This document shows, in pieces, positions 54,101-64,000 of a DNA stretch of 64,000 nt (its first letter is position 1; every line of letters begins with the position of its first letter). The translations under genes and the position numbers were made by a program. The notes under the pieces are model-generated. The model was not told the origin of the DNA. It saw nothing but the letters and a program-made list of their open reading frames with translations, and did not search any database. The DNA comes from Oegoconia quadripuncta. Lineage: Eukaryota > Arthropoda > Insecta > Lepidoptera > Autostichidae. The DNA lies in NCBI GenBank assembly GCA_949316235.1, contig OX438743.1:43377440-43441439 (forward strand), in the 5' to 3' direction.

Positions 54101-57100
54101 TTTTGAAAAAAAAAATTAAACTACCTATGTCGACAACTTCTATATGTCACTTACCTAATATTATGTCCTATTCATTCCTTACGGTAAAAAAAACCCCACG
54201 GTATATTTGTGTACATGTGTACGTGTGTATGTGTGTATGTGTGTGTGCCCCCGCAGGGTCACTGACCTCTCTCCGGTCGCGGCGGCGCGCGGCGCGGCGC
54301 GGCCAGCCCCGCCTCGCAGGTGACGTCATCGCCCCCCGCGCCCGCTCCTGCTCCCGCTCCCGCTGCCGCTCCCGCTCCCGCGCCCGCGCCCGCCCCGCTG
54401 GAGCAGCCCTCGCCGCAGCGGCGCCGGATCCTGTACGGGTACACATCGGTTAGAGGGAGGGCGGTTTACGAATATCCGACATGTATCTCGGATGCTAAAC
54501 ATTTTGTGAGTGAACAGTATCTTTTTTGAACTGAGGTCGAAAATCGCCAGCAAGCCTGATTGATCACACCATTTATTGTTTTAATAATTTATTTTATTTT
54601 CTTAGGAAAACCAACAGCTGTTTTACAAATTATCAATAATCAATCATCAATTATTAGATACAACATGGCATTCATCTAAAATGAAATGAGGTGAAATAAA
54701 AGTTAACATAAAACACTATTATATTTAAAAAAAAAAGGAAAACCCTGTACAGTAGGGTTACGGTATCTCTCTACGTAGGAACTATTCATTTTATCTGGAT
54801 AAAAAATATGCTGTGTCTTAATCCAGGGTATATTCTACCTGTACAGGCTGTGGTTTTAAACAGTCTCTAAATTGAAGGAGGGGATTGTATTGCTGTAAGT
54901 GATTATAAATCAATTAAAAAAAGTATACCTTAAAAAAATCAAAATATCGAATTTATTTTGAGGCATCTGTTTTTTTTGCGTATACTATACTAAGGTATCG
55001 GCAAGTTTAAATTCCCACGCTGCCGCCCCGCCACACGCCGCCTAGCCAGCGCCGACAAAGGGACCGGCTTCCTTGTCGGCATCTACGGCCGCACGCGCCG
55101 CGCGGGTGCAAGCGACTTCGCTAAGCTCCGGTTAGTCTGCCCGCTGCCGCCACCGCGAAAGCACAAGCACACGTGGTACGACTTTCGTAAATTTTGCTTA
55201 AAATAAAATGTCGCGTTACTCTAACAGAGATTACTTGGAGATGGTGCGGATGTACGCTCGCTGGTGACAGCTCGAGTGCAGCAGTACGCATGTACGCGGA
55301 GAGGTACCCGGATCGTCCGACGCCGTCACGGGTAACAATGCTGGCTGCTACACAACGCCGGCTCGACTACGGGCAGGACTGCAGTTCCAGCGCATGCCAG
55401 TGGGCGTGGCAACGTGGGCCTGCCCGTCGACGTACAAGAGCAGATCCTGCAGTATTTTGAGGATGAGCCCCGCGCCAGTACACGTGAAGCTGGTCGTCGC
55501 TTCGGCCTGGATCATACCATAGTTTGGTGCCTATTGAAGAAGAACCAGCAGCACCCGTTCCATTTTCGACGAGTTCAGGATTTGCTGCCCACTGATAACG
55601 TCGGCCGAGTCGAGTTTTGTAGATGGCTCCTCGAACATCAGCATGGGAACATTATGTGGACCGACGAGGCGCTATTGACGCGGGTTGGCGTTTACAGCGT
55701 GCATAATGAACACTGGTGGGCGCACAGGGAGCACAACCCTCATGTGACCAAAAACGACTCGTTCCAAACTCGTTTTAGTTTGAACGTATGGGCTGGTATT
55801 ATCGGCACCCATTTATTAGGACCTTATTTTATAGAAGGTCGTCTCACCAGCCTTACCTACCTGGATCTGCTGCATCAGGTTGTCGATGAGATGCTGATGG
55901 ATATCCCATTGGCACTCCACAGAGACTTGTACTACCAGCAGGACGGTGCACCACCACATTACGGTAACATTGTGCGCAACTACCTGAATGATACGTTTGG
56001 AGCACAGTGGGTGGGACGTGGTGGTCCATATCCCAAATGGGGTGGTCAGAGACATCCCAAACCAAGTGTTTGGGTATTCCAAAGATTAATGCTTGAAACA
56101 ACATCCATGTTTCACCCTAGGAATCACAGAAATGCACACGTGACAGGGGGTGAGCCCATCGCCGTTAAAACCTGCAAGTCTATGGATGTTTTTATGGAAA
56201 GTCCCTTAGTCGCCTTTTAAGACATCCACGGGAAGAGATGGGCTGGTGCTATTCTTTTTATGTGCCGACACCACACAGCACTAGACGATCGAAATGTTTA
56301 TGTTCGTCGACTTTATTGTATCGGTCGTTCGTCGACCCTCTGGGCTAGTATACGCAAATTTTGGTATAAAGCATAAAACCTTACAAGATGAATAGGGCAC
56401 TGACCATGTTGTTAATTTGTTATTTAATAGTTTTAAGCACATTTATACTATTTGTTGTAGACTTTCGTATAATATGGAGACTGTTTAAAACCACAGCCTG
56501 TATATCAAATTCCGTCTAAATTCGTTTCGTGGTGATTGAACAACAAATAAAGAAACATCAAAACGTCGCATTTATAATATCAGTTAGATACATCATAATA
56601 ATATGGATATAAAATATTTTGTTTTTTTAATTTAAGTGTCAAGTAGTTGTAAATATTGAGTCAACCGTATAGGTGTTTCGTGTGTACAACCCGGTTACAA
56701 TATCTATGCACCTGGCTCTGTGACGTCATATCGGACGGGGGATGGGCGACGAGGTGAAAGAAAAGTGGGGAGAGGCGTCGCATCCAGCGAGGTGCACAGA
56801 TTTTTTTTTAATGACAATTGTTTAAATATTATTGCTAGCGTCAGGGCGCCTGTGTGTGTGTGTGTGTGTGTCCCGACCCACCGTCTCCACAGGCGCGCGG
56901 CGTGGGAGCGCAGCGCGGCCGCGGTGAGGGGCGGGCCCAGCAGGGGGCGGGGCGGGGGGAGGGGGGAGGGCGGTACGCACCGTCTCCACAGGCGCGCGGC
57001 GTGGGAGCGCAGCGCGGCCGCGGTGAGGGGCGGGCCCAGCAGGGGGCGGGGCGGGGGGAGGGGGGAGGGCGGTACGCACCGTCTCCACAGGCGCGCGGCG

Positions 57101-64000: not shown

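Follow-up and report, generated by a model that had tools for sequence, protein, structure and literature searches.

Tandem arrays of exon ends with their 5' splice sites in pecanex and other genes of the moth Oegoconia quadripuncta

Background

Variable internal tandem repeats at exon-intron boundaries were described by De Grassi and Ciccarelli in 2009 (PMC2812944) in human segmental-duplication genes. According to the available part of that report, the units average 30 bp with about 4 repeats each, the paralogs that carry them are recent primate duplicates, and the arrays may stay in the exon. Intron gain by tandem genomic duplication of an AGGT (proto-splice site) sequence has been described in Drosophila (PMC2891723) and in potato (PMC4974935), as far as the accessible text of these papers goes. 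The accessible sections on CEB1, CEB25 and HRAS1 (PMC3486850, PMC2673046, PMC5491262) describe GC-rich subtelomeric minisatellites that form G-quadruplexes. A 150-bp repeat at the start of an intron, in 1 or 2 copies, is reported for Sparus myostatin-2 (PMC3045353); we discarded it as a precedent, the excerpt consulted giving no exon within the repeat.

Here we describe arrays in a 64,000-nucleotide stretch of Oegoconia quadripuncta DNA (the window) and at other loci of the same assembly, whose units comprise the end of a coding segment and the signal that closes it. Like the human repeats in the part of PMC2812944 considered, they are recent minisatellite expansions that span an exon-intron boundary and change or lengthen the intron. 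Unlike them, as that part describes them, the moth units are mostly 88-144 bp long and present in up to dozens of copies, and the arrays lie at 3' coding edges, including stop codons, several of them in conserved genes. Intron gain of the AGGT type, as presented in the sources above, likewise copies splice-site sequence within a gene by tandem duplication; in the moth, by contrast, many copies are made of a donor already present and no intron is created, the existing intron simply starting with the array. Indeed, in pcx, FEM1, L016 and L027 the next exon follows the array in frame, a single existing intron holding the array, and no new intron between two AGGT copies in an exon was found. With minisatellites of the CEB1 kind, as outlined in those papers, the arrays share GC-richness, G-quadruplex capacity in some cases and, for several, a position near chromosome ends, but that kind is defined by sequence and instability and the moth arrays by coding-edge position; as a class they lack the G-quadruplex motif, which is absent from 22 of 38 units. 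They resemble ordinary VNTRs or minisatellites in their head-to-tail units of 31-174 bp, homogenisation and higher-order repeats, and differ from them in having been recruited at many loci from coding-segment ends with one polarity.

A first-pass annotation of the window knew of no named class defined by amplification across an exon end and its donor. Minisatellites at exon-intron boundaries are in fact published for human genes (PMC2812944, in the text available), whereas a strictly 3'-edge class was not found: the open-licence papers searched yielded no report of a genome-wide array class confined to 3' coding edges.

Arrays in the pecanex gene

The minus strand of the window carries the 3' part of the pecanex (pcx) gene (Table 1). 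Joined, exons A-E form a single open frame that matches Pfam Pecanex_C (E 8e-110, query 28-251 on profile 3-226, net gap none), and the junctions A/B, B/C, C/D, D/E and E/F are backed by alignment with five proteins from other insects; E/F agrees with the pecanex-like protein of Choristoneura fumiferana, which is 90% identical to pcx over the aligned part. Because of the Pecanex_C match and the insect-protein alignment, the first donor of each of arrays A, C and E is regarded as the authentic exon end. A sequence search for a solved pecanex structure returned none, and an Rfam scan of the window at gathering scores gave no match, so that a structured RNA reading is unsupported.

Table 1. Exons and arrays of pcx, in window positions
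Feature	Position	Strand	Donors (first/last position)	Unit length	TRF period	TRF score	Remarks
Exon A	63896-64069 (63896..64000 in window, rest in adjoining sequence)	minus					Supported by joined frame, Pecanex_C and insect proteins
Repeated suffix of exon A	63896-63980	minus					Last 85 nt
Array A	61628..63980	minus	20 GTGCCG (63895/61723)	112-123 bp	112 bp	4245	
Exon B	61256..61403	minus					Single copy, donor CAG/GTGGGC
Exon C	60546..60697	minus					Last 50 nt form the repeated suffix
Array C	58745..60595	minus	18 GTGCGC (60545/58837)	91-103 bp	about 101-103 bp	3369	(CCCCG)n filler in ordered three-unit pattern
Exon D	58462..58648	minus					Single copy, donor CAG/GTACAG
Exon E	57911..58080	minus					Last 63 nt form the repeated suffix
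Array E	56880..57973	minus	11: 9 GTGCGT, 2 GTGGGT (57910/56881)	99 or 112 bp	99-112 bp	1798	

Each unit is composed of its exon's own terminal nucleotides, the donor and a C-rich filler. The units are head-to-tail, near-identical and detectable by TRF, as in minisatellites, and the TRF scores (Table 1) are such that the three arrays are not due to chance. Among complete unit-to-unit exon suffixes, 44 of 45 are identical to their own family and one has a 1-bp insertion. The final copies end differently: that of array A stops exactly at the exon end CTCCAG and is followed by unrelated intron, that of array C is truncated within the exon suffix, and in array E the intron past the final donor lacks the C-rich filler. 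Filler variants are ordered as higher-order repeats (e.g. aabaabaabaabcdcbb in array C), a hint of the order that multi-unit exchange would give. All three arrays carry a G-quadruplex motif. A coding reading of the arrays was considered and rejected: all three sense frames are open, but shuffled units show that composition explains this openness, and unit lengths have no frame bias.

The first-pass annotation had counted 20, 18 and 11 donors at the ends of exons A, C and E, and an exact recount on the minus strand agrees. Its estimate of about 60-85 nt for the repeated exon part suits A (85) and E (63) and has to be lowered to 50 nt for C. The three units are indeed unrelated, as it had claimed, being derived from different exons with only the C-rich filler looking alike. 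Exons B and D are, as it stated, unamplified; their GC (0.64 and 0.59) is below that of A (0.80), C (0.72) and E (0.74). In all five exons the last 60 nt are GC-richer than the first 60 nt, and the 20 nt past the donor are GC-richer than the 20 nt before the acceptor, a comparison that is partly circular for A, C and E, where the former are array filler; GC is lower in the intron ends ahead of the acceptors. The starts of exons A, C and E (first 60 nt) are also GC-rich (0.62-0.78), yet unamplified.

Two more arrays are found immediately upstream, outside the window, one with a 90-bp unit and 8 donors and the other with a 118-bp unit in 2.3 copies; both probably belong to pcx too. Within the window, two GC-rich stretches (52582-52656 and 54335-54399) with short in-frame repeats (Ala-Gly and Ser-Gly like) resemble further pcx exons, one of which may have a GC donor (CAG/GCGAGT) at its end, near 52520. 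A plus-strand open frame of 294 aa inside a pcx intron (55336-56220) looks transposase-like by eye and matched no Pfam family at E 0.01. A separate 2.5-kb array (18996-21524) holds about 120 copies of the 21-bp unit CCCCCATGAAAAGCTATACAG.

Exon-end arrays at other loci

When array A was searched as DNA against the entire assembly (622.6 Mb), five other places were identified; four of them hold exon-end arrays (L013, L014, L015 and L016), and the fifth (L017) showed none. Seven (CCCCG)3CCCC clusters were listed for C1 and for C2 as far as pcx. Four are at donors: L019, L016 and pcx have arrays there, whereas the donor of L018 is single-copy; no exon-end array was found in the other three (L020-L022). 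At L018 (C1:15819900-15823900) the single-copy donor is directly followed by CCCCG repeats, and this locus possibly represents the state before amplification.

For the survey proper, we used three donor-blind probes (GCGCTG, TGCAGG and GCCGCG), each word being required three times with a spacing of 84-114 bp. Words without a donor were chosen so as to avoid selecting donors, and TGCAGG was picked for its likeness to an acceptor. The matches listed cover C1 (to 50.109 Mb for GCCGCG) and C2 up to 19.6 Mb at most. Compared with the reversed word as control, the excess of matches is clear for GCGCTG (1943 vs 491) and TGCAGG (722 vs 128); for GCCGCG (1928 vs 1761) the control word is itself GC-rich, and for the donor word GTGAGT (1506 vs 1265) it overlaps GTGAGTG. 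The AT-richer donor word GTAAGT gave 1198 matches vs 761.

Among the matches listed, GCGCTG gave 16 clusters, corresponding to 10 genic arrays, all over a donor, 4 clusters without array and 2 satellites judged by eye. TGCAGG gave 9 genic arrays, again all over a donor, its other clusters listed being transposon- or satellite-like by eye or without array (L047). GCCGCG gave 15 genic arrays in the matches listed, of which 12 contain a donor, two a stop codon (L048 and L050) and one (L049) is unclear, lying in sequence about 100 bp ahead of an apparent acceptor. After deduplication, the donor-blind total among the matches listed is 26 genic arrays (25 on C1 and 1 on C2). Of these, 23 contain a donor and 2 a stop codon, 1 is unclear, and none lies over an acceptor or a start codon. 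This count leaves out the satellites C1:2178311 and C1:15861264, the matches C1:7938281 and C1:10784145, the transposon- or satellite-like TGCAGG matches and the A-rich repeat C1:49292824, all of these judged from 80 letters; it further leaves out L055, and L038, L039, L040, L042, L047 and L056, whose sequence was examined and contains no array. L055 (C1:28898500-28899700) consists of seven copies of an AT-richer 88-bp unit (GC 0.42), which could belong to an exon, an acceptor or a satellite. From the 83 of 100 listed GCGCTG matches that belong to the 10 arrays, a rough extrapolation suggests about 200 arrays genome-wide for this probe alone.

The donor word GTGAGT added L023, L031 and L032 among others. 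GTAAGT yielded no exon array by eye among the matches listed (C1 and 19.6 Mb of C2, about 70 Mb), these being only simple repeats and AT-rich satellites, and a GC-rich seed therefore seems needed.

In all, 34 donor arrays and 4 stop-codon arrays were described, with a common layout: full exon - donor - (filler - exon suffix - donor)n - truncated copy - intron. Most of the 34 donors were read in the DNA alone, from an open frame running up to the repeated GT together with this layout; homology backs the junctions in pcx, FEM1, L016 and L027 only. FEM1 has two donor arrays, and its joined exons match FEM1C (PDB 6lf0, E 1e-23) without gap at both array junctions. L016 encodes the C4 zinc finger of a DNA polymerase, the Pfam match (E 3e-9) extending across the array junction; this identity comes from Pfam, a search of its protein against PDB by sequence giving no structure. 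L027 is YEATS2, whose exon junction across the array is backed by homology. Several array-bearing genes thus belong to conserved families (pecanex, FEM1, MetRS-like, YEATS2).

Two pairs of arrays lie 2-5 kb apart, L029 with L054 (C1:50042000-50046000), both Ig-like, and L025 with L046 (C1:41303300-41309000); each pair is perhaps in one gene, as in pcx and FEM1. The 44-bp unit of L044 (C1:4359100-4360500) contains both CTGCAG and AAG/GTACGG, which would in principle allow every copy to serve as a microexon of 12 nt.

Thus the geometry that the first-pass annotation had reported from pcx, with independent amplifications over a donor and never an acceptor, is borne out by the donor-blind probes among the matches listed. 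Its restriction of the phenomenon to one gene has to be abandoned, the layout occurring at many other loci in the genome, as does the restriction to donors. GC-rich exon ends are retained as substrate, in view of the unit composition given below and of the GTAAGT probe; its proposal that C-runs act as general slippage partners is not.

Arrays over stop codons

Four arrays span an in-frame stop codon: FEM1 a3, Deltex (L015), ZnT-like (L048) and L050. L048, whose array spans TGA, is the only one with homology within a few residues of the stop, its protein matching SLC30A3 (PDB 9jj1, E 3e-5, chain 340-386, query 1-47 of 51). In L015 the in-frame stop lies 31 residues past the Deltex C-terminal match (Pfam DTC, 5e-15; DTX2, 1e-17, query 6-75 of 106). 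For FEM1 a3, where the match is to ankyrin repeats only, and for L050, without Pfam match, the stop is read from the open frame. Since arrays also span stop codons, it appears to be the 3' edge of coding segments, rather than the donor, that they have in common.

Properties of the units

We analysed 38 units (window, L010, L013-L016, L019 and L023-L054). GC is 0.57-0.93 in all of them, and copies number from 2 to some 30. A C-run of five or more is present in 17 units and missing from 21, and C-run slippage was for this reason rejected as a general cause; the units of L037, L044 and L046 combine moderate GC with no C-runs. In 16 units the template strand carries a G-quadruplex motif; no unit has one on the sense strand, a bias which may reflect pyrimidine-rich intron starts. 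Unit length modulo 3 is distributed 10/9/7 in 26 donor arrays (p 0.76), that is, without frame preference.

Of 21 arrays entered for divergence, 18 were scored: the distal half is the more divergent in 9, the proximal half in 2, with 7 ties, a weak polarity of decay toward the distal side; L025 and L030 have decayed distal copies. In FEM1 a2 and L027 every copy departs from the functional exon in the same way, which means that homogenisation does not always take the functional copy as its template. L029 reads as a plain tandem duplication of exon end and intron start; its last copy is followed by the native intron start in diverged form. In L035 the intron past the last copy is not GC-rich. 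Within 1.5 Mb of the C1 ends we found 8 of the 25 donor-blind arrays vs 6% expected (p 7e-5, gene density not being controlled); the pcx arrays are 188-207 kb from their contig end and the FEM1 arrays 67-71 kb from the end of theirs.

Origin of the arrays

The explanation we favour, and judge rather probable, is that the arrays are minisatellites which arose at the downstream edges of GC-rich coding segments and survive where the first donor or stop stays correct. A short tandem duplication would occur at a GC-rich exon end and reach beyond the donor or stop by anything from a few bases to some tens, the junction frequently containing filler; this structure is seen in the arrays, and the event itself is what we infer from it. 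Such a duplication would be harmless, since the first donor (for the spliceosome) or the first stop (for the ribosome) remains correct and the spare copies fall in the intron or the 3'UTR. The mirror duplication over an acceptor or a start would put the wrong signal first and be removed, as the one-sided distribution suggests. Spare copies thus probably survive only at the downstream edge because there they do no harm. Unequal exchange or slippage could then raise the number to some 30 copies, near-identical to the functional exon end, while older copies would decay at the distal, intron side, in keeping with the identity and the weak polarity observed. GC-richness, the G-quadruplex-capable filler of some arrays and the position near chromosome ends may favour the initial duplication or the later expansion.

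This account agrees with the donor-blind count (23 donors and 2 stops of 26, no acceptor or start, among the matches listed), with the junctions supported across arrays in pcx, FEM1, the polymerase zinc finger and YEATS2, with the lack of frame preference (the stop-free pcx frames reflecting composition) and with L029, which reads as a plain duplication of exon end and intron start. Against it, the bias may be partly compositional, given that pcx exon ends are GC-richer than starts in five of five; the G-quadruplex strand bias is not predicted by it; the functional copy is not the template in FEM1 a2 and L027, and the decay polarity is weak; three of the four stops rest on an open frame; L049 is unclear and the AT-richer L055 ambiguous; GTAAGT matches exceed their reversed control; and the survey drew mainly on one contig and one period range.

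The main rival to selection on the first signal is composition alone, which we hold to be a serious possibility although on the doubtful side: GC-rich patches would cross the donor and stop before the T-rich acceptor side, making selection unnecessary for the asymmetry. The GC gradients of the five pcx exons, at exon ends and past the donors (the latter partly circular for A, C and E), and the GTAAGT probe without exon array by eye among the matches listed are what it would lead one to expect. It accounts less well for the GC-rich but unamplified starts of exons A, C and E, for units that are only moderately GC-rich and without C-runs (L037, L044, L046) and for the intron of L035. A mutational process coupled to the donor, related to splicing, R-loops or transcription and duplicating DNA at 5' splice sites, seems unlikely. 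It would fit the 23 of 26 donor-blind arrays listed that contain a donor and the G-quadruplex strand bias (template 16/38, sense 0/38), but it cannot recognise stop codons, which four arrays span (only L048 being well supported), most units have no G-quadruplex motif, and the GTAAGT donor was without such arrays by eye in about 70 Mb of matches listed.

We give still less weight to selection for a function of the arrays, for example extra donors that would reinforce weak 5' splice sites or adjust the level of intron retention. Predicted U1 pairing of the amplified donors of pcx, FEM1, L013 and L016 is -4.3 to -9.1 kcal/mol, vs -10.4 and -8.2 kcal/mol for the unamplified pcx B and D, these two being the only controls; however, strong GTGAGT donors are amplified too (at loci chosen by that word), frame or length preference is absent, and stop-codon arrays cannot serve splicing. 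With two unamplified controls and strong donors amplified as well, weak-donor rescue was dropped. An assembly or sequencing artefact is the least credible of all: the near-identity of the copies speaks for it, but an artefact is blind to coding direction, whereas 25 of the 26 donor-blind arrays listed are at 3' coding edges; moreover, filler variants are ordered, distal copies have decayed in L025 and L030, and fillers and edges vary from locus to locus.

Returning to seeding at downstream edges, we tentatively extend it, with a confidence somewhat short of even, to a more general rule in which donors and stops are permissive and acceptors and starts forbidden for tandem duplications, because splicing and translation both take the first signal met in the 5' to 3' direction. 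Hundreds of exon ends would then be self-renewing minisatellite nurseries and, as part of the same tentative reading, the sequence of each nursery would be set by purifying selection on its functional first copy.

Implications

If true, this would make it possible to say by a simple and testable rule where in genes short tandem duplications persist. With up to dozens of identical 5' splice sites in competition, the arrays in conserved genes are natural ladders that would directly reveal which donor the spliceosome takes; from the sequence we predict the first donor of each array. Gene annotation may fail at array-bearing exons. The Choristoneura pecanex model starts only inside exon B, which may, by conjecture, be linked to such arrays.
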